Assembly (NCBI RefSeq): GCF_007988945.1
Contig: NZ_BJVC01000002.1
Location: 248,001-312,000 of the forward strand
Reading direction: 5' to 3'
DNA from: Swaminathania salitolerans
Lineage (GTDB): Bacteria > Pseudomonadota > Alphaproteobacteria > Acetobacterales > Acetobacteraceae
Length of the DNA: 64,000 nucleotides
Shown here: piece after piece, positions 28,897 through 43,263 of the stretch
How the letters are laid out: each line of letters begins with the position of its first letter
How positions within the stretch are numbered: the first letter of the stretch is position 1
The notes under the pieces: model-generated
Told to the model about the DNA's origin: nothing
What the model saw: only the letters and a program-made list of their open reading frames with translations
The model's database searches: none
Position numbers and translations under genes: made by a program

Positions 28897-31179
28897 TTGT
28901 TGGGATTGTTCAAAAAGGCAACCATACGCGTCGAAGCGAGCGCATCCGACGCCTCGGAAGATCTTGAAACCCTGGCGAAAGCCGTCATAAGACGCGACTG
29001 GACGATCCTCGGGGATAAACGAGATCGCGCGTCCCAAGAGGCGCCCTGGCTGAGCATGCCCGCTGCGCTTGCGCGCCTGCTTCGTCGGTTTTTAGAGGAA
29101 GCAGATAGAAATCGGGACGCAGGTAATACGCCAGACGCCGCGTTACTGTATGAGGCAGCTTATACACTCTCTCCATCCCGTATGGATCTATATGTTCAGT
29201 GCGGGAACATGCTTAAAGATTCGGGCGATCTGGAGAGAGCCGAACGCGTTTATCGCGACGTGATCAGCAAATTTCCTGATGAAGCCGAGGCCTATCTTCA
29301 ACTCGGCCATACGTTCAAAATCTCTGGTCGGAGAAACGCGGCTCTGGATGCCTATCGCGCTGCGTTAAAGCGCGACCCTGGGAATAATGATGCCCATGAC
29401 GAACTCATACTTCTCGGCGATTCCTTCAGCCAGCACGCGGCAGCGCAGCATATAGGCTTCACACGGACATTGATAGCCTCCCTCGACGTTGCCCGCAAAC
29501 TGGAAGCAATCGGCGAGGAGTTGAGATCGTGCAAGGGAATCATGAACCTCAACTATCCGTTCACGGCAATTCCCCGGGAAGACTTCTCGTCCCATCGCGA
29601 GATGTTCGTCGCCGAAAACGAGACAAAAATAGAAAATGACGACTTCGCGATCGTCTTGCCACAGTTCGACGTAGAGCCAGACCTTCTCCAACTTCAAATC
29701 GACGCATTGGCACGTATCTCCGATCCGTTCCGCCTTGTAACTATCGGCGCCACTCCAGCGGTTCGTGAGAACTGGGATCGCCCAGCCCGGTTGCGACGGA
29801 AGGTCGTTCACATCGACACGTTCGCCGGCCTCGAAAATCACATCGAGCGCGAGAACGTGCTCTTTCTTTCCTCCCGCGACATCCCCACCACCAACTCATT
29901 GCGCTGGTTCAAGATTGCGATAGAGTCCGGTGCCGATTTCGCCTATTGCGACGAGATCCGTCATGAAGGTGTGGCATCCCGTGGCACGGCTCGATCGCGG
30001 ATATCGCTGCTTTCCAAACCATGCTTCGATGAAATCTGGAACGAACAGGTCAACTATCTGGGAAGCGCTTTTTGTGTGAAGAACGCATTGTTCGCAGGGA
30101 CGCCTCTCCCGATTGATACAACGCCACAGGCTTACCTATCACGTGCTCGGAAAGTCGCTCACATTCCTTACCCGTTAATCGAAAGCTACCGTGAGCTTTC
30201 TGACAAATCCCCGTCAGGAAGCAATGAACTCCCCACTCGTTTTGCCAGCCTAAGCAGGGATCATGACATTCATGTCGTGATATGTACCCATAATAACGCA
30301 GCCTCATGTCGTGACATGATAGCGAGCTTGCGTGACAAGGCCCGTGCATGCGAACGGGTGAAGATAACGGTCGTCGACAACAGGACGAGCCGACCCAACG
30401 ACCTCGCCATCCTCGAGAGTCTCGAAGACATTGCAGAATTGAACGTCGTGCGAGACCCGCATGCATTCAACTGGTCGCATATGAATAACGAAGCCGCCTC
30501 CCTGAGCGACTCGCATATTGTCGTCTTCTGCAATGACGATATGGAAATGCTTTCAGAGGGCTGGGACGACATGTTGAGCCAACTTCTCGACGACGACGAA
30601 GTGGGCATGGTCGGCGCAAAATTGCTTTACGCCGACGACACGATTCAGCACGGTGGCATATTGCTTGGGTGGCAAGGATCGGTGATCCATGACGGCCTCT
30701 ATGAACCGATGGACAGCATGGAGCAATTCGCACGCTGGCAGTGCACAAGAGAATGCGAGGCTGTAACCGGAGCGTTTCTTGCGATGCGACTATCTCTCTT
30801 TCAGGATCTAGGCTGTTTCAACGCCGAACATCTCGCCATTTCCTATAGTGACGTCGATCTCTCTTTGCGTGTCTCAAAATCTGGTTACAAAGTCCTTTGG
30901 ACACCGGCCATACGACTCCGCCACGATGAATCGGTCAGCCGCGGTCTCGACCATCTTGACTCTATGCGTCAGGCACGAGCAGCCTCGGAACGGAGATGCT
31001 TTGAGCGGATATGGGGTGAGTCGAGACTGAGCAGGGATCGGACTGTAAATCCGGTCTGGGCCGATGTGACGCTTCCTTTCCGGCTCTTGAGGCCGGTAAA
31101 CCATGAGACCGCGATCCAACATATCCGATACTCGATGTCACTCAACAAGAGGAGCGCTGACGGTCAGTCCGCGCCGTGA
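28897..31179 (+). CDS. TPR-containing family 2 glycosyltransferase
   Basis: The ~760-residue protein has at least two TPR units at about 85-160 (AERVYRDVISKFPDEAEAYL, AALDAYRAALKRDPG). A middle region (~245-440) resembles a GT-A fold with YCDEIRHEG in place of the metal motif. A C-terminal GT2 domain (~448-740) has VVICTHNNAASC, FCNDDMEM as the metal-binding motif and AVTGAFLAMRLSLF. It probably adds sugars to surface polysaccharide or protein. The start is TTG at 28897 or 28900, with AGGAA about 10 bases upstream. The gene looks lower in G+C than its flanks, a hint of transfer. No other polysaccharide genes are beside it. Confidence 0.87.
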   Translation: MLGLFKKATIRVEASASDASEDLETLAKAVIRRDWTILGDKRDRASQEAPWLSMPAALARLLRRFLEEADRNRDAGNTPDAALLYEAAYTLSPSRMDLYVQCGNMLKDSGDLERAERVYRDVISKFPDEAEAYLQLGHTFKISGRRNAALDAYRAALKRDPGNNDAHDELILLGDSFSQHAAAQHIGFTRTLIASLDVARKLEAIGEELRSCKGIMNLNYPFTAIPREDFSSHREMFVAENETKIENDDFAIVLPQFDVEPDLLQLQIDALARISDPFRLVTIGATPAVRENWDRPARLRRKVVHIDTFAGLENHIERENVLFLSSRDIPTTNSLRWFKIAIESGADFAYCDEIRHEGVASRGTARSRISLLSKPCFDEIWNEQVNYLGSAFCVKNALFAGTPLPIDTTPQAYLSRARKVAHIPYPLIESYRELSDKSPSGSNELPTRFASLSRDHDIHVVICTHNNAASCRDMIASLRDKARACERVKITVVDNRTSRPNDLAILESLEDIAELNVVRDPHAFNWSHMNNEAASLSDSHIVVFCNDDMEMLSEGWDDMLSQLLDDDEVGMVGAKLLYADDTIQHGGILLGWQGSVIHDGLYEPMDSMEQFARWQCTRECEAVTGAFLAMRLSLFQDLGCFNAEHLAISYSDVDLSLRVSKSGYKVLWTPAIRLRHDESVSRGLDHLDSMRQARAASERRCFERIWGESRLSRDRTVNPVWADVTLPFRLLRPVNHETAIQHIRYSMSLNKRSADGQSAP

Positions 31180-31195: not shown

Positions 31196-32005
31196 TCAGC
31201 AGGTTTCGATCGGGATCCCGGCGGCTTCGAGATCCTGCCGGATTTCCGGTCGGATCTGCGTGTCGGTAAGGATACGGCTGAAATCGTGCAGCGAGGTCAG
31301 GCGATGCAATCCTCCCTGCCGGAACTTCGTGCTATCCACGAGAAGGACGCTCTGATCGGCAATCGCCATCAGGGCGCGCTTGACCTTGACCACATCCTGA
31401 TCGTTCTGGAATGCCGTGTCTCCCGAGATGACCGAGGTGGACATGAACATGATATTGCCGCGCAGCGATCGTGCGGCCTGCTCGCATACGAGGCCGAAGA
31501 AAGCGTTTCGTGAATTGCTGTAATCGCCGCCGAGGCAGATGATCTTGATACCGGGGAACGGTGCCAGAGCCTGAACGACCCCCACGGCGTTGGTGATGAC
31601 GGTCAGAGGCGCCCGGGCCGGGAGGAGGGGAAGCATTTCCGCAACGGTCGTGGAATCATCGAGTATGACCACCTGGCCGGGTTCGATCATCGATACGGCA
31701 CGCTGGATGATCGCCTTCTTGAGATTGGCTGCCCTGTGCTGACGATAGGCGACGTTTTTCTCGGTACGCGCCCGGTTCTTCAGCGTAATACCGCCATGGA
31801 TCTTGTCGATGAGCCCCTGACTCGCGAGCGCATGAGCGTCCCTGTGGATCGTCATCCGGCTGACCTCGAAATGCTCCGACAGGAATTCGATACTGGCATT
31901 CCCCTGTTCGAACAGGAGGTCGAGAATCTGCTGCTGGCGGGTTTTGAGGTTCTGACGCTTGATCCCGGTCTCGGACAGGGATGCCGATTTCAGATCACCA
32001 CTCAT
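31196..32005 (-). CDS. DeoR-family repressor of the polyol locus (copy 1)
   Basis: The 269-residue protein has a DeoR helix-turn-helix (QQQILDLLFEQGNASIEFLS, then [14 protein letters not shown], about 24-75) and the phosphosugar-binding DeoRC domain with VVILDDSTTVAEML, LTVITNAVGVV and KIICLGGDYS. Such proteins repress nearby sugar genes and are released by a sugar phosphate. It is divergent from the FGGY kinase at 32288. I chose ATG 32005; an in-frame ATG at 32071 adds 22 residues. It is a clear paralogue of the second DeoR protein at 36688-37515. Confidence 0.9.
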   Translation of the reverse strand: MSGDLKSASLSETGIKRQNLKTRQQQILDLLFEQGNASIEFLSEHFEVSRMTIHRDAHALASQGLIDKIHGGITLKNRARTEKNVAYRQHRAANLKKAIIQRAVSMIEPGQVVILDDSTTVAEMLPLLPARAPLTVITNAVGVVQALAPFPGIKIICLGGDYSNSRNAFFGLVCEQAARSLRGNIMFMSTSVISGDTAFQNDQDVVKVKRALMAIADQSVLLVDSTKFRQGGLHRLTSLHDFSRILTDTQIRPEIRQDLEAAGIPIETC

Positions 32006-32191
32006 ATGCGCGAACTGCCTTTGACAGGTTAGGCTTTGATCCTCGGATCGAAGCGGATCGGAAGGTAACATAACAAAAATATCACAAACATCTCACACTA
32101 GCAAGATGCTCTCACGCCGGGACTGCGCGTAGACTACCCGTTATGCATCGTCTCTGCGCTGTCCTGCACAGACAGAGACAAATAATTCGTA

Positions 32192-32287: not shown

Positions 32288-33865
32288 ATGAGTGGGCATT
32301 ATCTCCTTGGCATTGACTGCGGCTCGTCGACGGCCAAATCCGTGATATTCACGCCTGATGGCAGGATCGAAGGGGTAGGGCAGGCACGCGTCGCCCAGAT
32401 CACGACGACTCCCCATCATGTCGAGCGCGACATGGCTGCGACCTGGGAGATCGTTGCAGGAACGGTGCGCGCAGCTCTCGCAGATGCCGGTATCGAGGGG
32501 AGCGCGATCGCCGGCGTCGGGGTCACCGCGCATGGTGACGGTCTCTTTCTGCTCGACCGTTCGGGACAACCGCTCGGCCACGGAATCATGTCTCTCGACA
32601 GCCGTGCGCGCCAGATCCACGAATCCTGGCGCGACACGGGCCTTCTCGACCGTGTCATGCCCTGCTCCGGGCAACGACCCTATCCCTATTCCGCAACCGC
32701 GCTTCTGGCCTGGATCAGGGATCATGAGCCCGCGCGTTACGACGCCATCGGCACTGCGTTCTTTGCCAAGGACTGGATACGCCTCTGCCTGACCGGAGAG
32801 ATCGCAACGGATCTGACCGAGGCAAGCACGGCCTTCACGGATGTGCACAGCCAGGAATACAGCCGGGAAATCCTCGATATGCTCGGCCTGGATGGCATTG
32901 CCCACGCCTTGCCGGATCTGCTCGATTCCTGTGCGCAAGCCGGGGGCGTCAGCGCGGAGGCCGCGCGGCTTACCGGGCTCGCGGTCGGCACGCCGGTTTC
33001 GGCCGGTCTTCACGACGTCACGGCGGCAGCGGTCGGGCTCGGTCAGATCCGCGCGGGCGACATGACCGTAACGGCCGGTACTTTCTCCATCAACGAGGTT
33101 CTTCGCGACCGCCCCGTGACGGGCAGGACCTGGTCCTGCAGGGCCGGGTACCGACGCGGATTGTGGAACTGCATGGCGATCTCTCCGGCTTCAGCGAGCA
33201 ATCTGGAGTGGATGGCCGGATTGACGGCGCCCGGGGATCCGGACTGCGCCGCCAGATTGATCGACGGGGCAATCGCGCGTTTTTCGGGCGCGCGTTTTTC
33301 AGGCGAACGTTCCCGGCATGTTCTTCCGCTCTATCATCCCTATCTGTTCGGCTCGCCATTCGAGGCGCCTGCGACCGCCTCTTTTCTCGGTCTGCAATCC
33401 TGGCATGACCCCATCGACCTGTTCCAGGCCATGATCGAGGGAACGATCTTCAATCACCGTCAGCATGTCGAGGATCTGCTGCAAACCGGCCCCGTACTGC
33501 GTCTCGGTATATCCGGAGGGGGAAGCAGAAGGCCGGAGATCGGACAGCTTTTCGCCGACATACTGGGGCGTCCGGTTATGACCTCTCCGGTGCGCGAAGC
33601 AGGCGCCCTGGGGGCCGCCCTGACCGCGGGGGTGGCGAGCGGCGTTCACGCGTCGCTCGAGAGCGCAGTCGCCGCGCTCGATATCGAACCGCGTCAATTT
33701 ACCCCCGCCCCCCGCATGACCTGCTTCCATGACAGGCAATATGCCCGTTACAGGGCCGTTGCGGAGGCACTCGCGCCTTTCTGGCCGGGCCTGATCGATG
33801 CGTCCCAGGTCGATACACCCCAGATCGATATGCCCCCGGTTGGCGTATCCCCGGTGGTGGCGTGA
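32288..33865 (+). CDS. FGGY-family polyol/ketose kinase (EryA/LyxK-like)
   Basis: The 525-residue protein has the FGGY ATPase fold. LLGIDCGSSTAKSVIF (phosphate 1 loop, residues 6-21), GVTAHGDGLFLLD, the DxR-type SLDSRARQI and GLHDVTAAAVGL (catalytic Asp about 243) are seen in the first domain, and LGISGGGSRRPEIGQLFADI (adenosine motif) in the second. Overall it recalls L-xylulose kinase LyxK and erythritol kinase EryA about equally. The neighbouring EryB-, EryH- and EryI-like genes favour erythritol or another C4/C5 polyol as substrate, giving D-erythritol 1-phosphate in the first case. The Pro/Asp/Val-rich tail after residue 505 is loose. It is divergent from DeoR copy 1 and first in its operon. 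Confidence 0.85.
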   Translation: MSGHYLLGIDCGSSTAKSVIFTPDGRIEGVGQARVAQITTTPHHVERDMAATWEIVAGTVRAALADAGIEGSAIAGVGVTAHGDGLFLLDRSGQPLGHGIMSLDSRARQIHESWRDTGLLDRVMPCSGQRPYPYSATALLAWIRDHEPARYDAIGTAFFAKDWIRLCLTGEIATDLTEASTAFTDVHSQEYSREILDMLGLDGIAHALPDLLDSCAQAGGVSAEAARLTGLAVGTPVSAGLHDVTAAAVGLGQIRAGDMTVTAGTFSINEVLRDRPVTGRTWSCRAGYRRGLWNCMAISPASASNLEWMAGLTAPGDPDCAARLIDGAIARFSGARFSGERSRHVLPLYHPYLFGSPFEAPATASFLGLQSWHDPIDLFQAMIEGTIFNHRQHVEDLLQTGPVLRLGISGGGSRRPEIGQLFADILGRPVMTSPVREAGALGAALTAGVASGVHASLESAVAALDIEPRQFTPAPRMTCFHDRQYARYRAVAEALAPFWPGLIDASQVDTPQIDMPPVGVSPVVA

Positions 33866-33999: not shown

Positions 34000-35667
34000 A
34001 TGACTCATTCCGCTCCCTGCCTCGACTCCGCACATTTCGACGTGACCATCATCGGTGCCGGGATAAACGGCGCCGGTCTGTTCCGGGAGCTGGCTTTGCA
34101 GGGACTCAATGTCCTGCTGATCGACCGCGGGGATATCTGCGCCGGGGCGTCCGCCGCACCCTCGCGCCTCATCCACGGCGGAATCAAATATCTCGAGACG
34201 GGGGAGTTCCGCCTCGTGGCGCAATCCACCCTGGAGCGCAACCTGCTTCTGCGCAATGCACCGCATGTGGTCAAACCGCTTCCCACGATCATCCCGATCC
34301 ATTCCTGGCTCGGCGGGATCCTGCCTTCGATCAAGCGCTTCCTGCGCCTCAAGGCGAAACTGGCCGACAGGGGCATAGCGATCACCGAAATCGGGATGCA
34401 GATCTACGACTTCCTCGGGCGACGTGCCCGCGTCATGCCACGCCATACGCTTTCGATCGGACGGAAGATGCGCAGAGCCTGGCCGCATATGAGCCACAAG
34501 GTCATCGCGACGGGCCGCTATTTCGACGCCGCCATTACACAACCGGAACGACTGGGATTCGAATGCGTGGAAGACGCGCTGCGGCTCAATCTCGGTTGCG
34601 CCGTCAGGACCTACACGACGGTTGCCGGTTTCGAAGCGGGAAAACTGATCCTGCGGGATGCGCTGGACGGCACGACAACAACCGTCACCACCGATCTGGT
34701 CGTGAATGCTGGCGGCGCATGGATCGACCGGATCAACGCGGATCTGGGGCTGCATACCCGTTATATCGGGGGCACGAAGGGTTCGCATCTCGTGCTCGAT
34801 CATCCCGGTCTCCTGCGTGAGCTTGCGGGGCAGATGGTCTATTTCGGCACACCCGACGGACGGATCTGTCTCGCCTATCCCTTCATGGGACACGTGCTGG
34901 TGGGCTCGACCGATATCCCCGTGAACGACCCCGACAGCGCAACATGCTCCGAAGACGAACAGCGCTACATGCTCGACATGCTCGGTCAGCTCTTTCCCGG
35001 GTTCCGCTTCACCGATCGTGACGTGATCTATCGCTATTGCGGCGTGCGACCGCTTCCTGCGTCCAATGCCGACGATCCGGGAGCGATCAGCCGCGACCAT
35101 GTCGTGCATGCCGATCGGGCGCAGGGCAAGCCGGTGCTGTCTCTCGTGGGAGGAAAATGGACGACGTTCCGCGGGCTGTCGGAGGAGGTCGCCGACGATA
35201 TCCTCAACCGCCTCGGTCGCAAACGCAGGCTGTCTTCCCGTGAGCGCGCGATCGGCGGCGGCGCGGGCTATCCGGCCGAACGCGCGCGTTCGGCCTATAT
35301 CCGGACGCTCTCGACGCGGCACGACATCAGCGTCGCTCGCGCAGCTACGCTGTTCGAGCGTTACGGCACGACAGCGGAGCGCATTGCCGCATCCTGCGGA
35401 CGCTCGGAAGACGCGCCTCTTGCCAGCCTTCCCGACTACACACGTAACGAGCTGATCTGTCTGGCGCGTGACGAACTCGTTCGCACCGTGGATGACCTCG
35501 TTTACCGACGCACGCCCATCGCGCTCTCGGGTGCGCTGAACCGGGAGGTCCTGTCCGAGATCTGCGACATCCTGGCCGCCCCGCTCGGCTGGGACACGAC
35601 AGAGCGGGACAGACAGGAAAACGCCTGCTGGCAGGTCGCCCGGACGCAGCACGGCCTGCATTCCTGA
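34000..35667 (+). CDS. eryB: GlpD-family FAD dehydrogenase, EryB-like (D-erythritol 1-phosphate dehydrogenase)
   Basis: The 555-residue flavoprotein has the FAD-binding motif VTIIGAGINGAGLFRELA at about 15-32 and GlpD-type blocks APSRLIHGGIKYLETGEF, LVAQSTLERNLLLRNAPH and VLVGSTDIP. The last three, and the RVMPRH block, fit EryB of Brucella/Rhizobium better than glycerol-3-phosphate dehydrogenase GlpD, whose N-terminal block differs. EryB oxidises D-erythritol 1-phosphate to D-erythrulose 1-phosphate and passes electrons to the respiratory chain. It follows the FGGY kinase by ~130 bases and ends at a strong hairpin. A GlpD role cannot be ruled out. Confidence 0.82.
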   Translation: MTHSAPCLDSAHFDVTIIGAGINGAGLFRELALQGLNVLLIDRGDICAGASAAPSRLIHGGIKYLETGEFRLVAQSTLERNLLLRNAPHVVKPLPTIIPIHSWLGGILPSIKRFLRLKAKLADRGIAITEIGMQIYDFLGRRARVMPRHTLSIGRKMRRAWPHMSHKVIATGRYFDAAITQPERLGFECVEDALRLNLGCAVRTYTTVAGFEAGKLILRDALDGTTTTVTTDLVVNAGGAWIDRINADLGLHTRYIGGTKGSHLVLDHPGLLRELAGQMVYFGTPDGRICLAYPFMGHVLVGSTDIPVNDPDSATCSEDEQRYMLDMLGQLFPGFRFTDRDVIYRYCGVRPLPASNADDPGAISRDHVVHADRAQGKPVLSLVGGKWTTFRGLSEEVADDILNRLGRKRRLSSRERAIGGGAGYPAERARSAYIRTLSTRHDISVARAATLFERYGTTAERIAASCGRSEDAPLASLPDYTRNELICLARDELVRTVDDLVYRRTPIALSGALNREVLSEICDILAAPLGWDTTERDRQENACWQVARTQHGLHS

Positions 35668-35926: not shown

Positions 35927-36691
35927 ATGTCAAGAAAACCGCTCTGGGTAGGAACCAGCTGGAAAATGAACAAGGGCCCCAGCGCCGCCCGGGCGGCCGC
36001 CGAGGCCCTCGCTGCGATCGATGTTCCTGACGGGATACACCCTTTCGTCATTCCGCCCTTCACCTCGCTCGAAGCCGTTGCGGGACTGCTCGAAGCGACC
36101 CGATGGCAGGTCGGCGCCCAGAACATGCACTGGGAGGACGAAGGTGCCTGGACCGGCGAGATATCGCCTCCGATGGTCAGGGAGTGCGGCGCAACACTGA
36201 TCGAGCTGGGCCACTCCGAACGGCGCGAGCATTTCGGCGAAACGGATGTGACCGTCAATCTCAAGGTCAAGGCTGCCCTGCATCACGGATTGTCGCCGCT
36301 GATCTGCATCGGCGACAGTGCGGAGGAATATGCCTCGGGTGCGACACACGACACCCTCGCGAGGCAGGTCCGCATGGCGCTTCACGAGCTTCCTGCAGCC
36401 TCGATCGGCGCCATCCGTCTCGCTTACGAGCCGGTCTGGGCGATCGGTGCGCAGGGGCGGGCTGCAGAATCGGATTTCGTCGCTGCGGCTCATGCGAGAT
36501 TGCGCTCTGTCCTTGCGGAACTCGCAGGGGTCGATATCGCGAGACGGGTTCCGATCCTCTATGGCGGAAGCGTCTCGCTCGAGAACGCGTCCGGCTATAC
36601 CGCGCTCGCGGATGTCGATGGCGTGTTCATCGGTCGCTCGGCCTGGAGCCCCGCCGGGCTGGAGGCGATCATCCGGTCGGTGGCATCATGA
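35927..36691 (+). CDS. eryH: Triose-phosphate isomerase-like EryH (L-erythrulose 1-phosphate isomerase)
   Basis: The 254-residue TIM barrel has all TpiA catalytic residues: Lys13 in TSWKMNK, His96 in ELGHSERREHFGET and Glu168 in AYEPVWAIG. The phosphate loop is LYGGSVS. Its variant blocks VGAQNMHWEDEGAWTGEISP and DGVFIGRSAW are those I recall from Brucella EryH (TpiA2), which converts L-erythrulose 1-phosphate to D-erythrulose 4-phosphate, rather than those of the glycolytic enzyme. The start ATG at 35927 is the first codon of the open stretch. It leads the second transcript, and the next regulator gene overlaps its stop by 4 bases. Confidence 0.87.
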   Translation: MSRKPLWVGTSWKMNKGPSAARAAAEALAAIDVPDGIHPFVIPPFTSLEAVAGLLEATRWQVGAQNMHWEDEGAWTGEISPPMVRECGATLIELGHSERREHFGETDVTVNLKVKAALHHGLSPLICIGDSAEEYASGATHDTLARQVRMALHELPAASIGAIRLAYEPVWAIGAQGRAAESDFVAAAHARLRSVLAELAGVDIARRVPILYGGSVSLENASGYTALADVDGVFIGRSAWSPAGLEAIIRSVAS

Positions 36692-37515
36692 GCGGCGGCA
36701 TCGGAATCGAGAGCAAGGCCGTATCGGCGCGTCGCCGCGAGATACTGGATTACGTTCTCGAAAACGGTGGCGCCCAGATCGAGGAACTCGTCGAGCGTTT
36801 CTCCACCAGCCGCATGACGATCCATCGCGACCTCCACGCTCTGTCGGAGCAGGGGCTGGTCCGCAAGGTGCATGGTGGCGTGACCATGCTCGCCAGCGGC
36901 GTCATGGAGACGAGCGTCGTTCACCGGATGCGGCGGGCCTCGCGGGAGAAACATGCCATAGCGCGTGTCGCGGCGTCCTTCATCAAGGCGGGCGATATCA
37001 TCGCTCTGGACGATTCCACCACATCGCGCGTGCTGTCGGAGCAGCTCCCCTCTGCGATGCCGCTCACGGTGCTGACCAACAGCATGGGCATAGCTACCCA
37101 AATTGCCGGTGCCAGGGATGTCAATCTGATCTGCCTGGGCGGAAAATATCACCCGCGTTTCGACGCCTTCCTCGGCATTCTGTGCGAGCAGAGCTCGAAA
37201 TCGCTGCGGGCGAATACATTGTTCATGTCGGTCTCGGCCGTTCGCGATCTCGGCGCCTATCATCAGGAGCAGGAAATCGTGAAATGCAAGATGGCGCTCA
37301 TGGAAATCGTCGATCGTCGGATCCTCATGATCGACAGCCACAAATTCGACGTCACGGCGCTCAACCGTCTCGCGAATCTCTCCGATTTCGACGTGGTGAT
37401 CACCGATTCCGGTGTTTCCGATCGTCAGAAAACCAAGATGCTCGATGCGGGTATCAATCTTCACGTCGCAGCGCTCGACGAGGAGACCTCCGCATCGCGT
37501 GCCTCCTCCCACTGA
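36688..37515 (+). CDS. DeoR-family repressor of the polyol locus (copy 2)
   Basis: The 275-residue DeoR protein has the DNA-binding block [20 protein letters not shown], then [14 protein letters not shown], and the effector domain with [23 protein letters not shown] and [10 protein letters not shown]. It shares these blocks with DeoR copy 1, so one is probably a duplicate of the other. It overlaps the eryH-like gene (ATGA) and is inside the operon, so it probably controls its own transcript. Brucella EryD also sits within the ery cluster but belongs to a different regulator subfamily as far as I can tell. Confidence 0.9.
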
Positions 37516-37537: not shown

Positions 37538-38005
37538 ATGAAAATTGCAGTTGGTGGCGACAGCGCCGGCGAAGGCCTCGCCCAGCAGATCGTGGCCCAT
37601 CTCAAGGCAAAGGGTTTTTACGTAACCGATCTGTCGAAGCCGGAAAGCGGAACCGGCGAGCTCTATTCCGAGCTCAGCGAGCGCGTGGGACGCGCCATTC
37701 TGGCCGGCACCTATGAGCGCGGTATCCTGTGCTGCGGCACGGGGATCGGGGTTGCGATTTCCGCGAACAAGATCCCCGGTATCCGTGCGGCGCAGACCCA
37801 CGACACCTATTCCGCCGAGCGCGCGGCGCTGTCGAACAACGCCCATATCATCACCATGGGCGCGCGCGTGATCGGCGTCGAGCTTGCGAAAGCCATCGCC
37901 GAGGCATGGCTGGCCAAGGAATTCGATCCGGCAAGCGCATCGTCGCGCAATGTCGACGGTATCGACGCCCTGGACCGGAAGTATTCGCCCAATTCATGTT
38001 CCTGA
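37538..38005 (+). CDS. eryI: RpiB-family EryI (D-erythrulose 4-phosphate isomerase)
   Basis: This 155-residue RpiB/LacAB-type isomerase has the family start [15 protein letters not shown], the active-site cysteine in [17 protein letters not shown] (Cys65/66) and the block [27 protein letters not shown]. These blocks match what I know of Brucella EryI, which converts D-erythrulose 4-phosphate to D-erythrose 4-phosphate for the pentose phosphate pathway. AAGGAAAAGAG is just upstream. A ribose-5-phosphate isomerase B role is the main alternative, but the gene order with the eryH-like gene supports EryI. Confidence 0.88.
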
Positions 38006-38036: not shown

Positions 38037-38963
38037 ATGAAAAAAGCCCTGCTTGCCGCCGCTACTCTCCTCTGTGCTCCCCTGTCAGCCCAGGCTGCCA
38101 CGGATACGGGTCCCATGCGCTTCGTCATGATCCCGAAGGCCGTTCATCCCTGGTTCGACAAGGCCAATAACGGCGCCCAGGCCGCCGCCGCTCTTCTGAG
38201 CAAGGCGACCGGTCGCCAGATCACCGTGGAGTATCGTGCGCCGCAAACCGCCGATGTCTCGACCCAGAACGACATCATCGAGCGGGCGATCGCCACCCAT
38301 CCCGACGGACTCATTCTCGATCTTCTCGACGAGAAGGGCAATCGCGCGACGATGCAGGAGGCGGTCGAGGAGAAGATCCCGATGACCGTGTTCGATTCCC
38401 TCCCGCCGGAAGGAATGAACATCACGGCTGTCGGCGCTGATTTCTGCGAGCAGGGAACCCTTGCGGCCGAGCGTCTCGCGAAGCTGATCGGCAACAAGGG
38501 CGAGGTCGCCATCATGATGGGCGTCCCCACCGCGCCCAATCACGCGCTGCGCGCGCGCTGCGAGCTCAAGGTCTTTTCGAAATATCCCGATATCAAGGTC
38601 GTCGCGACCGGGATCGACAATGACAGCATCGAGACGGCCCAGAAGCAGGCTTCGGCGATCATGCAGGCCCATCCCGATCTCGCAGGCTGGGTTGCGTGCG
38701 ATGCAGCCGGCCCCGTCGGGATCGGCCAGGCCATTCGCGAGAGCGGAAAGGTCGGGAAGGTCAAGGAAGTCGGCCTCGACAATCTCAACGACATGCTCCA
38801 GCTGATCAGGGACGGCGTGGTCGACTCATCGGCGTCGAGCCGTCCCGAGATGCAGGGATACTGGGCCGTCATCGCGGCGTGGCAGAAGGCCCTCGGGCAG
38901 CAGACACCCAAGAACATCGATACCGGCATCGATATCATCACGAAAAAAACGCTCTCCAAATAA
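38037..38963 (+). CDS. Sugar/polyol ABC transporter periplasmic binding protein
   Basis: The 308-residue protein has a clear signal peptide (MKKALLAAATLLCAPLSAQA, cut near residue 20) and a type I (RbsB-like) periplasmic-binding fold. Blocks FVMIPKAVHPWFDKANNG, VSTQNDIIERAIATHPDGLI and VGADFCEQGTLAAERLAKLI are typical of ribose/polyol-type binding proteins. It is followed by the ATPase and permease genes with small gaps, forming a complete importer. By position it corresponds to EryG of Brucella. The ligand may be erythritol, L-erythrulose or another polyol/ketose. Confidence 0.9.
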   Translation: MKKALLAAATLLCAPLSAQAATDTGPMRFVMIPKAVHPWFDKANNGAQAAAALLSKATGRQITVEYRAPQTADVSTQNDIIERAIATHPDGLILDLLDEKGNRATMQEAVEEKIPMTVFDSLPPEGMNITAVGADFCEQGTLAAERLAKLIGNKGEVAIMMGVPTAPNHALRARCELKVFSKYPDIKVVATGIDNDSIETAQKQASAIMQAHPDLAGWVACDAAGPVGIGQAIRESGKVGKVKEVGLDNLNDMLQLIRDGVVDSSASSRPEMQGYWAVIAAWQKALGQQTPKNIDTGIDIITKKTLSK

Positions 38964-38980
38964 ACGATGGAGACGGGACA

Positions 38981-40486
38981 ATGGTCCTTCTCAAAGCAAC
39001 GGGTATCCGCAAATCCTATCCGGGAGTTGTCGCCCTGGACCATATCGACCTCACGCTCGAACCCGGCAAGGTCCATATCCTTGCCGGTGAGAACGGCGCG
39101 GGCAAATCGACGCTGATCAAGACCTTGTCCGGGCTCGTCCGTCCCGATGAGGGAGCACTCGCCATCGAGGATGGCGATGCGCTCCAGGAGCCGCGTCTGT
39201 TCCAGCGTGTCGCCTATGTTCCCCAGGAACTGAATCTCTTTCCCTATCTTACCGTCGCCGAAAACATGTTCATGCCCTTCGGGCGGAGCGGCTTCGGGAC
39301 GATCACCGTTTCCGAAAAGGCCATGGAGCGCGAGGCGGAGAAATTCATCTCCCGCTTCGGCATTCATGCCCGCGCCGATCAGAAGGTGGCCGATATCAGC
39401 GTTCCGGATCAGCAGCTTCTCCAGATCGCCCGCGCGGCGACCCAGGAGGAATTCAGGATCATGATCCTGGACGAGCCGACCTCGTCGCTGACAGCGAAGG
39501 AAACGGAACGGCTCTTCCGCATCGTCAACGACCTGCGTGACAAGGGCATCGCCATCGTCTTCGTCTCTCACAAGATGGAGGAGATCTTCTCTCTCGGAGA
39601 CACCGTCACCGTGCTTCGGAACGGCCGCAGCGTCGGCACCTTCCCGATGGCGGACATGACGGAAAGCGAGCTGATCCGTCTCATGTCGGGCAGCACGGTC
39701 AAGCTGGACGAGCAATTCCAGTCGCGCAGCGAAACGCGCGACGACGATGTCATCCTGTCGGTGGAGGGGCTGTCGGGCCCCGGATTCGACGATGTGTCCT
39801 TCACCCTCCGTCGAGGCGAGATCCTCGGTTTTGCGGGCCTCGTGGGCGCCGGACGCTCCGAAGTGATGCAGACGATGTTCGGCTTCCGGAAAGCGCGCGC
39901 GGGCCGCGTGATGCTCGAAGGGAAGGAGATCGCCCGCAACCGCCCGGACAAGGCGGTCAGGGCCGGAATGATGTATCTGTCGGAAGAGCGCAAGCATCAC
40001 GGCATTTTCCCCATGCTCAGCGTGCGCGAGAATATCGCTCTGGCGGTGACCGGCGCGATCACGAAAGGCGGGCTCATTTCCGGCGCCCGCGAAACCGCGA
40101 CCGTATCGGACATCATCGGCCGGTTCGATGTACGGACGTCCTCGCCCGAAAAGAAGATCATGTTCCTCTCGGGCGGAAACCAGCAGAAAGCGATCATCGG
40201 GCGGGCAATGGCCCGCAAGCCGCGGCTGCTGATTTTCGACGAACCGACGAAGGGTATCGATATCGGAACGAAGTTCCAGATCTACCGGATCATGCAGACT
40301 CTTGCCGAAGAAGGCGTGGGGATCATTCTCGTTTCCTCGGAAATGAGTGAACTCCAGCGTTGCGCGAACCGGATCGTCACCATGTATGCCGGCCAGATCA
40401 ACGGTTCGTTCGATCATGCCGACACAGATGTCAGCACCTTGGTAGCCGCCATCATCGGCTCGCCGGAGACCAGCCATGTCGCCTGA
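38981..40486 (+). CDS. Sugar/polyol ABC transporter ATP-binding protein (two-domain, RbsA/EryE type)
   Basis: The 501-residue protein has two ABC domains. The first has Walker A GENGAGKST at 36-44 and MILDEPTSSL. The second has a degenerate Walker A (GLVGAGRSEVMQ) but a normal signature LSGGNQQKAIIGRAM and LIFDEPTKGID, as usual in RbsA-type proteins. It drives import by the permease encoded next. The start ATG 38981 follows a GGAG at 38969-38972. It overlaps the permease gene by 11 bases. Confidence 0.94.
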   Translation: MVLLKATGIRKSYPGVVALDHIDLTLEPGKVHILAGENGAGKSTLIKTLSGLVRPDEGALAIEDGDALQEPRLFQRVAYVPQELNLFPYLTVAENMFMPFGRSGFGTITVSEKAMEREAEKFISRFGIHARADQKVADISVPDQQLLQIARAATQEEFRIMILDEPTSSLTAKETERLFRIVNDLRDKGIAIVFVSHKMEEIFSLGDTVTVLRNGRSVGTFPMADMTESELIRLMSGSTVKLDEQFQSRSETRDDDVILSVEGLSGPGFDDVSFTLRRGEILGFAGLVGAGRSEVMQTMFGFRKARAGRVMLEGKEIARNRPDKAVRAGMMYLSEERKHHGIFPMLSVRENIALAVTGAITKGGLISGARETATVSDIIGRFDVRTSSPEKKIMFLSGGNQQKAIIGRAMARKPRLLIFDEPTKGIDIGTKFQIYRIMQTLAEEGVGIILVSSEMSELQRCANRIVTMYAGQINGSFDHADTDVSTLVAAIIGSPETSHVA

Positions 40487-41501
40487 AACCTCGCCAGCAC
40501 CGGCCCCCGCATCGGGCGCCCAGCTTCCACCGCCGCCCTCGCTGGCGGACCGGATCAAGACAGTGGCGGCCAATCCGCTTTGCGGCGTGGTCGTCGCGCT
40601 CGTCGTGATCTTCGTCCTTTCCTGCCTGTTATCCGCGCATTTTCTCACAGCCTTCAACATGAAGATCATCGCCCGGTCGCTCGCCTTCGTGGGGCTCGTG
40701 ACCATCGGCCAGGCCATTCTGATGATCCTCGGCGAACTCGATCTTTCCGTCGGCGCCATAGGCGGCCTGTCCGGCGTTGCCGGCGGACTCTTCATGGTGC
40801 AGTTCGGCCTCGATCCGTGGCTGTCTCTCGTGCTCTGTCTCGCGCTCGGCACGGCATGCGGATTGCTCAACGGCGTTCTCATCACGCAGCTCCGCCTTCA
40901 TTCGCTCGTGCTCACGATCGGCATGGCGGGTGTGTACGGCGGTGCCAATCTCGTTCTGACCAAGGGCGTCGCCATTACGGGCATACCGGGAGCCATCTCG
41001 TTTCTGGGGCGCGGCATGATGTTCGGTCTTCCGGTGCCGTTCGTCATCCTTCTCGTCTGTCTCGCCATCGTCTCCTTCGTGATGCTGCGCACGCCGCTCG
41101 GTCGCTATGTCTATGCCATCGGCAGCAACAAGGCCGCGGCACGCATGCTCGGCATCCGGGTCGACGCGATCCGGATCTGTGCCTTCGCCAGTGCGGGGTT
41201 TCTCTCGGCACTCGCAGGAATCGTCATGGTCGCCCGACTGGGTACGGCGCAGCCCTCGATCGGCGATACCTGGGTGCTCGCTCCGATCGCCGCTGCGGTA
41301 ATCGGCGGCGTCGCAACCACCGGCGGGCTCGGCAGCCCCTTCGGCGCCGTGCTGGGAGCCGTCATCATCGGCATCATCGAGAATGTCATCGTGCTGTTCG
41401 GTATCTCGCCCTACTGGCAGTCGATCGTCAGCGGCGGGATCGTCGTTGCTGCGATCTCGTTCGACTCCGTCGCCCGCCGCTACTTCAACCGGGAGGCCTG
41501 A
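40476..41501 (+). CDS. Sugar/polyol ABC transporter permease (RbsC/EryF type)
   Basis: The 341-residue membrane protein has about eight to ten hydrophobic helices after a Pro/Ala-rich N-terminal tail. The block GELDLSVGAIGGLSGVAGGL and the cytoplasmic coupling loop with GSNKAAARMLGIRVD are hallmarks of BPD_transp_2 permeases such as RbsC. Overlap with the ATPase gene shows translational coupling. The last gene of the set, the DhaK-DhaL kinase, begins 40 bases later. Confidence 0.93.
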   Translation: MSPETSPAPAPASGAQLPPPPSLADRIKTVAANPLCGVVVALVVIFVLSCLLSAHFLTAFNMKIIARSLAFVGLVTIGQAILMILGELDLSVGAIGGLSGVAGGLFMVQFGLDPWLSLVLCLALGTACGLLNGVLITQLRLHSLVLTIGMAGVYGGANLVLTKGVAITGIPGAISFLGRGMMFGLPVPFVILLVCLAIVSFVMLRTPLGRYVYAIGSNKAAARMLGIRVDAIRICAFASAGFLSALAGIVMVARLGTAQPSIGDTWVLAPIAAAVIGGVATTGGLGSPFGAVLGAVIIGIIENVIVLFGISPYWQSIVSGGIVVAAISFDSVARRYFNREA

Positions 41502-41541: not shown

Positions 41542-43263
41542 ATGACCAAGATCTGCGGCGATGCCGAAAATTTCGCGACATCCGCCCTGCGGGGTTTCGC
41601 CGATATCCACCGCGATATCGTAAGGCTCGTACGAGGGGGCGTGATCCGGTCCCGTCCGGCCACCCGAGGGAAGGTAAGTCTCGTCGTCGGGGGTGGATCG
41701 GGCCATTTCCCGGCCTTCAACGGTTATGTCGGCAAGGGCTTCGCCGATGCCTCCGTTGCAGGCGATGTGTTCGCCTCTCCCTCGACCCAGGCCATTCTGC
41801 GCATCGCGCGGGAAGCCCATCTCGGTGGCGGCGTCATTCTCGGTTATGGCAACTACGCCGGTGACGTCCTCAATTTCAGCATCGCAGCCGAGCGTCTGAG
41901 GGCCGAGGGCATCGATACCCGCATGATCGCGACGACGGACGACATTGCCAGCGCGCCCGAAGACGAGGCACCGCGACGGCGTGGCACCGCCGGGGATCTG
42001 CCCGTCTTCAAGATCATTGGCGCCGCGGCCGAAGAGGGCATGACCCTCGATCAGGTCGAGGCGATCGGAAAGCACGCAAACGCCCGTACACGGACCTTCG
42101 GCGTCGCTTTCGACGGATGCACCTTGCCGGGAGAAAAGGAAAAGCTCTTCCATGTTCCGGATGGCCGCATGGCCATCGGGCTCGGGGTGCATGGCGAGCC
42201 GGGCATCGACGAGACGGATGTGTTGAGTGCGGAAGCGCTGGCGAGCCTGCTCTGCGACCGTCTGCTTCGCGAAGCACCGGCAGGGGGCGGCTCACGCATC
42301 ACGGCGGTCCTGAACGGGCTGGGCGCGACGAAATACGAGGAGCTCTTCGTGTTGTGGGAGGCGATCATCCCGCATCTCGAGAACGCTGGCTATACGGTCA
42401 TCGCACCACTTGCCGGGGAATACATCACCAGCCTCGACATGGCCGGGTGCTCTCTCACCATCGTCTGGCTCGACGAGGAACTCGAGCGACTGTGGCGCGC
42501 GCCCGTGGAATCCGCGGCATTCCGGCGCGACCTCGTCTCAGGTTCGTTCACGGGGGGAACGCCTTCGCCTGCGGATATTCCCTCCGCCTACATGAAATCC
42601 CTGACAGAGGCGGGGCGTCAGGGCGGGCGCTGCGTCGCAACCGTCATGCACAAACTGTCCCTGGCGCTGAGTGCCGCCGAACATGAACTCGGACAGATCG
42701 ACGCCCTGGCAGGCGATGGCGATCATGGGCAGGGAATGGCCCGGGGCGCAGGCGCTGCCGCCCGGGCGGCTCTGGCCGCCGTCGATGCCGGAGCGGGCCC
42801 CGCTTCCGTCCTTGCGGCCGCTGCCGATGCATGGGCCGATCGGGCCGGCGGAACGTCGGGCGCTCTGTGGGGGGCCGGACTTTTCGCCTTCAGCACGGCA
42901 TTCGACGACGCAGCCGCTCCGGACGCGCAAAGCATTGCCACCGGTCTGCGCCGCGCCATGGAGAAAATCATGGCGCTGGGCAAGGCACGTCCCGGCGACA
43001 AGACGCTCATGGATGCGCTTCATCCTCTGGTGGAGACTTTCGAAGACAATCTGCGCAAGGGCGAGCCGATCGCCCGGTCCTGGCAGGATGCCGCCATCGT
43101 CTCGATGGAAGCCGCCGAAGCGACGAAGGATCTTCTTCCGCGTCTGGGGCGCGCCCGCACCCACGGCGAACGAAGCAAGGGCCATCCTGATGCAGGGGCG
43201 ATCTCTCTTGCGCTTTGCGCACGGGTCGTCGGGGAGGAGCTGGCAGCGCTGTCGTTGCGCTAG
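41542..43263 (+). CDS. Dihydroxyacetone/erythrulose kinase, DhaK-DhaL fusion (LerK-like candidate)
   Basis: The 573-residue protein fuses DhaK (1-~330) and DhaL (~355-573), the ATP-dependent kinase form. In DhaK, GGGSGHFPAFNGYVGKG and His217 in GLGVHGEPG, which binds the ketose covalently, are present. In DhaL, GDGDHGQGM gives the Asp residues for Mg-ATP (about 392, 394), with GGTSGALWG after. The family includes dihydroxyacetone kinase, L-erythrulose 1-kinase (LerK) and D-erythrulose 4-kinase (DerK). The adjacent EryH- and EryI-like isomerases favour L-erythrulose as substrate, by inference. Plain dihydroxyacetone kinase is the alternative, since these bacteria also make dihydroxyacetone from glycerol. 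Confidence 0.88.
   Translation: MTKICGDAENFATSALRGFADIHRDIVRLVRGGVIRSRPATRGKVSLVVGGGSGHFPAFNGYVGKGFADASVAGDVFASPSTQAILRIAREAHLGGGVILGYGNYAGDVLNFSIAAERLRAEGIDTRMIATTDDIASAPEDEAPRRRGTAGDLPVFKIIGAAAEEGMTLDQVEAIGKHANARTRTFGVAFDGCTLPGEKEKLFHVPDGRMAIGLGVHGEPGIDETDVLSAEALASLLCDRLLREAPAGGGSRITAVLNGLGATKYEELFVLWEAIIPHLENAGYTVIAPLAGEYITSLDMAGCSLTIVWLDEELERLWRAPVESAAFRRDLVSGSFTGGTPSPADIPSAYMKSLTEAGRQGGRCVATVMHKLSLALSAAEHELGQIDALAGDGDHGQGMARGAGAAARAALAAVDAGAGPASVLAAAADAWADRAGGTSGALWGAGLFAFSTAFDDAAAPDAQSIATGLRRAMEKIMALGKARPGDKTLMDALHPLVETFEDNLRKGEPIARSWQDAAIVSMEAAEATKDLLPRLGRARTHGERSKGHPDAGAISLALCARVVGEELAALSLR

Follow-up and report, generated by a model that had tools for sequence, protein, structure and literature searches.

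We examined a 64,000-nucleotide stretch of the Swaminathania salitolerans genome (contig NZ_BJVC01000002.1, positions 248,001 to 312,000; hereafter the window, whose coordinates are used throughout) and in particular the gene at 41542-43263 on its forward strand, which encodes a DhaK-DhaL fusion kinase of 573 amino acids. From the open reading frame (ORF), Pfam domains, trees, neighbouring genes and residues we propose that this protein probably phosphorylates a tetrulose with ATP and is most likely an L-erythrulose 1-kinase of the LerK type, which would complete an operon for the salvage of four-carbon (C4) ketoses. The prediction of a tetrulose as substrate is well supported by the neighbourhood, the residues and the isomerases, L-erythrulose is the likely form, and the annotation as a dihydroxyacetone (DHA) kinase is probably wrong. 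An earlier note on this DNA, made from the letters alone, had preferred L-erythrulose to DHA, and its preference is supported here by clade, residues, neighbours, isomerases and a separate DHA-kinase candidate elsewhere in the genome.

The ORF starts with ATG and is open throughout its 573 codons to the stop, whereas the opposite strand over the same interval has stops in frame 1. Both Pfam domains scored well above cut-off (Dak1, residues 17-325, 363.7 bits; Dak2, residues 390-561, 159.1 bits). Alignment with E. coli DhaK shows that H55, D108 and H217 are retained (H56, D109 and H218 in E. coli), and the DhaL residues D387, D392 and D394 do not vary among 18 aligned sequences that include both paralogs of this genome; the two alignments bear out the claim of the earlier note that the catalytic residues (His217 and the DhaL aspartates) are kept. 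The window kinase has G103, F56 and A106 in place of the K104, E57 and T107 found in E. coli, so that the catalytic residues are kept, yet three otherwise conserved positions close to them in sequence are changed. An AlphaFold model (mean predicted local distance difference test score 85.8; predicted template modelling score 0.60) found its best structural matches in the Citrobacter freundii DHA kinase 1un8 (E 3.5e-34) and in E. coli DhaK. The protein is thus a fused Dak1-Dak2 kinase with the catalytic histidine and aspartates, as a LerK should be.

Three long matches to DhaK-DhaL kinases are present in the genome, one in each of three groups that we call KL_A (the window kinase), KL_B and KL_C. 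In a careful tree of 76 rows these groups comprise 37, 17 and 6 rows, respectively, with KL_C including a Citrobacter glycerone kinase, and each has support of 100/100. A tree of 114 rows, built by a quick method and carrying a long-branch warning, gave the same split, with a wider KL_A of 79 rows that takes in actinobacterial groups. In both trees the window kinase lies outside the DHA-kinase clade; clustering with DHA kinases was the outcome that the earlier note had named as speaking against its reading, and the kinase falls elsewhere, in KL_A. The KL_C paralog, on contig C5 (locus L007), is 33% identical to the window kinase, and the C. freundii DHA kinase scored far higher with the paralog (1un9, 454.7 bits; 1un8, 453.1 bits) than with the window kinase (192.0 and 192.2 bits). 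We regard this separate gene as a better DHA-kinase candidate than the window kinase. The KL_B paralog (G000:C1:360397-362238; 39% identical to the window kinase) is followed directly by the gene for an EltD-like zinc alcohol dehydrogenase, which shares 56% identity with an annotated erythritol/L-threitol dehydrogenase. No isomerases were detected near this pair (L006:7398-10397), which is a candidate for cytoplasmic use of erythritol or D-erythrulose. A short DhaL-like fragment (G000:C1:226795-226998; L008:4769-5089) is perhaps the relic of a further kinase gene.

The residues that differ from E. coli DhaK separate the groups. We counted them, in E. coli numbering, among genes sorted by best-scoring query (147 KL_A, 13 KL_C and 39 KL_B including split halves, of which 30 rows have a residue at positions 57 and 104). 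Position 104 is glycine in 147/147 KL_A and 26/30 KL_B kinases and lysine in 13/13 KL_C. At position 57 an aromatic residue is found in 145 of the 147 KL_A rows (141 tyrosine, 4 phenylalanine), the two rows with glutamate, from L260 and L262, being stand-alone DhaK genes, and glutamate occupies it in 13/13 KL_C and 28/30 KL_B. Position 107 is alanine in 139/147 KL_A and threonine in 13/13 KL_C; the KL_B paralog of this genome has glycine at 104 and alanine at 107. The DHA-type trio of Lys104, Glu57 and Thr107 is therefore complete in all 13 KL_C kinases, and none of the three is present in the window kinase. Lys104 of E. coli DhaK is presumably a substrate contact, and its loss would be compatible with a larger ketose. 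Nothing useful on DhaK pocket residues was found in the literature, including the available text of PMC6643234.

As the earlier note had claimed, the kinase stands beside an importer (38037-41501) and two isomerase genes, one resembling triose-phosphate isomerase (TPI; 35927-36691, forward strand) and one resembling RpiB (37538-38005, forward strand). The kinase is thereby linked to genes of the LerI (TPI) and DerI (RpiB) types. According to PMC10733421, LerI and DerI convert L-erythrulose 1-phosphate via D-erythrulose 4-phosphate to D-erythrose 4-phosphate. The window RpiB scored 240.9 bits against a cut-off of 240 with the curated D-erythrulose-4-phosphate isomerase model NF051858. Two RpiBs of erythritol (ery) loci reach this cut-off as well, with 257.1 and 255.0 bits, and two RpiBs linked to KL_B fall short of it (169.1 and 164.9). 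A quick tree of 60 TPI rows separated 15 housekeeping TPIs from 45 TPIs of kinase or ery loci (Shimodaira-Hasegawa-like approximate likelihood ratio test, 99.7); the window TPI groups with the latter, operon-type proteins (EryH/LerI type), and the housekeeping TPI of this genome is located elsewhere.

Upstream of the isomerases and also on the forward strand are an FGGY kinase gene (32288-33865) and a gene for a GlpD-like flavin adenine dinucleotide-dependent dehydrogenase (34000-35667), and here Shinella zoogloeoides ATCC 19623 is informative: a KL_A gene, a GlpO gene, an FGGY2 gene, a DeoR gene and an ATP-binding cassette (ABC) importer adjoin eryA-eryB-eryC-eryD-eryR-tpiB-rpiB, the ery names being given by gene order and PMC3599248. 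Rhizobium ruizarguesonis has the identical ery gene order, and in [Erwinia] mediterraneensis (L189) a KL_A gene lies beside eryDCBA. The Shinella KL_A protein is 64% identical to the window kinase across the 227 residues compared, and the window TPI, DeoR and RpiB proteins are 53%, 37% and 64% identical to its TpiB, EryR and RpiB; the importer proteins are distant (24% for the binding protein). This neighbourhood would link the genes of the window operon to a CHARACTERISED pathway. The TPI, DeoR and RpiB genes of the window are contiguous, like the eryR-tpiB-rpiB module, in another order with the TPI gene first. We rejected the FGGY and GlpD-like genes as EryA and EryB: they are 30% identical to those proteins, versus 44% and 50% to the Shinella FGGY2 and GlpO, in whose groups we place them. 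EryA, EryB and EryC were thus not found as a set, with the operon pair at about 30% and the search for EryA and EryB confined to the operon. A search of the genome at E<=0.1 gave no EryC homolog, an empty answer that alone shows little. EryC converts D-erythrulose 1-phosphate to L-erythrulose 1-phosphate (PMC10733421), and in view of its absence a route via this epimerase is unlikely.

The link between KL_A kinases and both isomerases recurs in other genomes. Neighbours were counted in stretches of up to about 9 kb either side of the kinase gene. Among KL_A genes of the same family, RpiB was present at 17/22, TPI at 14/22 and both at 12/22; the other Pseudomonadota gave 9/9 for RpiB and 7/9 for TPI. 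A further set of 80 loci, comprising the best-scoring 80 of 581 relatives rather than a random sample, holds 82 KL_A genes, with RpiB near 74, TPI near 71, both near 66 and FGGY2 or GlpO near none. KL_C genes had neither isomerase (0/13 each) and likewise none of the EltD-like genes or genes resembling D-threitol dehydrogenase (DthD-like). KL_B genes had RpiB in 7/22, EltD-like genes in 8/22, DthD-like genes in 8/22 and TPI in 2/22 (1/22 inside the stretches counted), and the TPI-bearing KL_B row L118 sits outside the KL_B clade. Fisher tests of the same-family KL_A genes gave 7e-6 (RpiB) and 2e-4 (TPI) against KL_C, and 0.006 (RpiB) and 4e-4 (TPI, using 2/22) against KL_B, values that are rough because the rows are related. 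We do not favour reading KL_B as LerK from its EltD-like neighbour, given TPI in 2/22.

A window-like gene set from the GlpD-like gene to the kinase recurs at L052, L053, L054, L056, L057 and L058, and KL_A occurs with RpiB and TPI where FGGY2 and GlpO were undetected at L065, L060, L061, L108 and most of the 80-locus set. At L065 only the kinase, RpiB, TPI, a DeoR gene and an alcohol dehydrogenase were found together among the genes sought; the TPI there is of the operon type and the sole one found in that genome (G045), so either it does the housekeeping work as well or lower glycolysis is interrupted there. At 22 of the 80 loci, 21 of them gammaproteobacterial, a transketolase or transaldolase gene was found, as would be expected if the product enters metabolism as erythrose 4-phosphate. 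L113, a gammaproteobacterial KL_A gene, had no blastn match in E. coli genomes. KL_A genes are also found in four Curtobacterium loci (L186, L197, L213 and L215), and strains closest to Curtobacterium citreum were isolated from D-erythrose and L-erythrulose enrichments (PMC12780249).

Several observations weigh against our assignment. KL_A genes on plasmids of Rhizobiaceae and Paracoccus had neither RpiB nor TPI in range (0/6 each); OiaC-like genes lie near four of the six and FGGY2 or GlpO near two, and one such locus (L077) carries RpiB and TPI 15-17 kb away. Two actinobacterial KL_A sets, mostly from the order of Prauserella, have RpiB throughout (15/15 and 9/9) and TPI in 2/15 and 0/9, and some actinobacterial KL_A genes sit beside EltD- or DthD-like genes. 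We rejected LerK as the identity of every KL_A member, some KL_A groups being without TPI. Nor is the TPI link exclusive to KL_A: on G008:C30 (L123) a KL_B kinase occurs with FGGY2, GlpO and, about 8.4 kb off and just past the end of the stretch counted, a TPI of the operon type, a locus that did not noticeably shift the odds. The KL_B paralog of this genome, beside its EltD-like dehydrogenase, could be another erythrulose kinase. The window RpiB passes NF051858 by 0.9 bit only, and the glycerone kinase model TIGR02361 (cut-off 574.95), which the window kinase misses with 351.5 bits, is missed by the KL_C paralog too (492.5), so that this cut-off discriminates weakly here. Lastly, a characterised LerK may accept both enantiomers (PMC10733421).

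This last point bears on the choice of enantiomer. We chose the L form because a TPI-like enzyme would be required for L-erythrulose 1-phosphate and not for D-erythrulose 4-phosphate, and because of the physiology of acetic acid bacteria. Were the kinase instead a D-erythrulose 4-kinase of the DerK type, or one active on both enantiomers, it would need RpiB alone in the D-form route, and the role of the TPI-like gene would be confined to the FGGY-GlpD branch. The actinobacterial KL_A genes with RpiB, mostly without TPI and sometimes with EltD- or DthD-like genes, would suit such an enzyme, as would the G008:C30 locus, where the operon-type TPI could belong to an FGGY2-GlpO branch. We nonetheless think it improbable. 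TPI accompanies KL_A where FGGY2 and GlpO were undetected, as in the four loci and the 71 of 82 genes noted above, which favours the L form, and DthD-like genes are near 8/22 KL_B and 0/22 same-family KL_A genes. Acetic acid bacteria, moreover, form L-erythrulose from meso-erythritol (PMC9171043 and PMC11837542). In the window itself, where a DerK might be expected to have a D-threitol dehydrogenase nearby and no need of a TPI, TPI is present and the best DthD-like match (32% identity) lies 27 kb away, observations that by themselves point to neither enantiomer.

A true DHA kinase, salvaging DHA made from glycerol by SldAB, would draw on a ketose that is plentiful in these bacteria; it would have the same fold and catalytic residues and could use a TPI just as well, this enzyme being compatible with dihydroxyacetone phosphate, and GOX2222 of Gluconobacter oxydans 621H is indeed mapped to that product (PMC6191907). 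The window kinase, however, lies outside the DHA-kinase clade, retains none of K104, E57 and T107, and shares its genome with the KL_C paralog, a better DHA-kinase candidate of a type that lacks both isomerases in its surroundings. To our knowledge, RpiB has no role in DHA use. On clade, residues and neighbours we rejected this reading, which we now consider very unlikely. We give still less weight, and scarcely any, to another small ketose as substrate, for instance one released from a branched acid sugar by an OiaC-like decarboxylase. OiaC-like genes lie near 9/22 same-family, 4/6 plasmid and 13/82 80-locus KL_A genes, under a label that no library model confirmed; in the window no OiaC-like gene was found, and the isomerases are of the C4 type. 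OiaC itself, 3-oxo-isoapionate decarboxylase, yields L-erythrulose, and its presence would support an L-erythrulose kinase. No paper on apionate together with erythrulose was found in open-licence PubMed Central.

Other arrangements of these genes deserve mention. At four rhizobial and Paracoccus loci (L038, L039, L041 and L050) KL_A lies beside a PdxA-like gene, a tripartite tricarboxylate transporter and an OiaC-like gene, a neighbourhood that is probably an acid-sugar route ending in L-erythrulose, and at L070 an OiaC-like gene accompanies KL_A, RpiB and TPI. In L051 and L053 a further KL_A gene (54-55% identical), accompanied by an OiaC-like gene and a weak match to a short-chain dehydrogenase/reductase (SDR), stands a few kb from the window-type kinase; neither an OiaC-like gene nor a second KL_A gene was found in the window. 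An actinobacterial KL_A-like group (L311-L319) has RpiB and an EryA-like FGGY kinase, with TPI not detected. On G008:C30 (L123 and L327) the FGGY2, GlpO, KL_B kinase, DthD-like SDR and operon-type TPI genes occur together, so FGGY2-GlpO can travel with KL_B.

The remaining genes of the operon complete the picture. From the TPI gene to the kinase all genes are on the forward strand, and by their coordinates neighbouring genes either overlap or are separated by no more than 40 bases; the start codon of the second DeoR-family regulator gene (DeoR2, 36688-37515) shares bases with the TPI stop codon (ATGA). The importer comprises a periplasmic substrate-binding protein (Peripla_BP_4; 38037-38963), which scored below cut-off with all the NCBIfam models listed, an RbsA-type ATPase (38981-40486) and an RbsC-type permease (40476-41501), which are 60-61%, 55-57% and 68% identical, respectively, to their counterparts in L136 and L139, two Salinicola loci with importer genes beside KL_A kinases. 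Another DeoR-family gene (DeoR1, 31196-32071, reverse strand) is divergent from the operon. DeoR1 and DeoR2 are 42.5% identical and flank the FGGY-GlpD-TPI part, and two inducers are possible. A scan gave 3 promoter-like sites, not above shuffled sequences (mean 3.3, standard deviation 1.8), and 10 terminator-like sites, about as in the shuffles (mean 7.5, standard deviation 2.5). We rejected the ORF at 28897-31179 as a polyol dehydrogenase subunit; by eye it reads like a tetratricopeptide-repeat or glycosyltransferase protein.

We infer the substrate, its stereochemistry, the site of phosphorylation, the transport and the direction of the pathway as follows. Outside the cytoplasm, a polyol dehydrogenase dependent on pyrroloquinoline quinone (PQQ) would oxidize meso-erythritol to L-erythrulose, as is known from the physiology of these bacteria; PMC11837542 cites work on a PQQ membrane-bound dehydrogenase for this step, and a split pair, SldB-like (C7:19354-19683) and SldA-like (C7:17168-19102), is encoded in the genome. 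The RbsABC-type importer would take up the ketose, whose carbonyl would be bound by His217 of the kinase, and ATP-dependent phosphorylation at C1 would yield L-erythrulose 1-phosphate. The isomerases would then form D-erythrulose 4-phosphate and D-erythrose 4-phosphate, and the FGGY kinase and GlpD-like dehydrogenase would probably supply the same intermediate from a tetritol. In this way the bacterium would most likely recover and burn a product of its own extracellular erythritol oxidation.

A parallel exists in G. oxydans 621H, where GOX2217 is annotated as one of two TPIs, GOX2218 as a second ribose-5-phosphate isomerase that bears no strong resemblance to the other, and GOX2222 as a dihydroxyacetone kinase; their transcripts are long-lived, at 12.4, 13.3 and 19.1 min, respectively (PMC6191907). 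The GOX numbering suits an operon like that of the window, in which TPI and RpiB are followed by three transporter genes and the kinase, although the window also places a DeoR gene between the two isomerases; judging by this numbering GOX2222 is probably a KL_A kinase. Taken jointly, these observations raise a broader and more tentative possibility, one that we would not yet call probable: that the operon is a complete system for the re-uptake of L-erythrulose and its conversion to D-erythrose 4-phosphate; that KL_A is a tetrulose-kinase family spanning Pseudomonadota and Actinomycetota and marked by GGGSGH[YF]P and by Gly for Lys104; and that the FGGY-GlpD pair is an unrecognised second tetritol route that makes L-erythrulose 1-phosphate directly, with no need for the EryC epimerase. 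If so, GOX2222, GOX2217 and GOX2218 are mis-assigned in the metabolic maps of industrial G. oxydans. Such an operon would drain product in L-erythrulose or erythritol fermentations. The importer and kinase of this locus are candidates for the handling of one tetrose, and the annotation "dihydroxyacetone kinase family protein", which KL_A kinases now carry, would be corrected.

Among the closest known systems is that of Mycolicibacterium smegmatis, where the L-erythrulose kinase LerK was reportedly described in 2015, by Huang, together with LerI and DerI. LerK is a fused DhaK-DhaL kinase. Compared by description and not by sequence, the two systems share a kinase linked to TPI-type and RpiB-type isomerases and, as proposed for the window, D-erythrose 4-phosphate as end product (PMC10733421); the window operon differs in being without an EltD-type dehydrogenase and in having the extra FGGY kinase and GlpD-like genes. 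PMC10733421 uses a bacterial L-erythrulose kinase as a tool, and among the titles listed in searches of open-licence PubMed Central none was on an L-erythrulose kinase of acetic acid bacteria or had a bacterial one as its subject. Erythrulose kinase EYK1 of Yarrowia lipolytica, compared by description only, serves erythritol catabolism in a eukaryote. With the ATP-dependent DHA kinase of C. freundii (1un8) the window kinase shares fold, domain order and catalytic histidine and aspartates, and differs from it in clade, in Gly for Lys104, Phe for Glu57 and Ala for Thr107, and in neighbourhood. Its likeness to the KL_B paralog lies in overall identity and in the Gly104 and Ala107 that the paralog shares, whereas KL_B kinases form their own clade, mostly keep Glu57, often have EltD- or DthD-like dehydrogenases and rarely TPI; they may be D-erythrulose kinases. 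The erythritol locus of rhizobia and Brucella (PMC3599248) is matched by the window in the TPI, DeoR and RpiB of the eryR-tpiB-rpiB module, and not in the FGGY and GlpD-like proteins, which are distant from those encoded by eryA and eryB, in EryC, which was not found in the genome, or in the DhaK-DhaL kinase that is present instead. The operon is thus a mixture of the rhizobial and mycobacterial types of C4 pathway.

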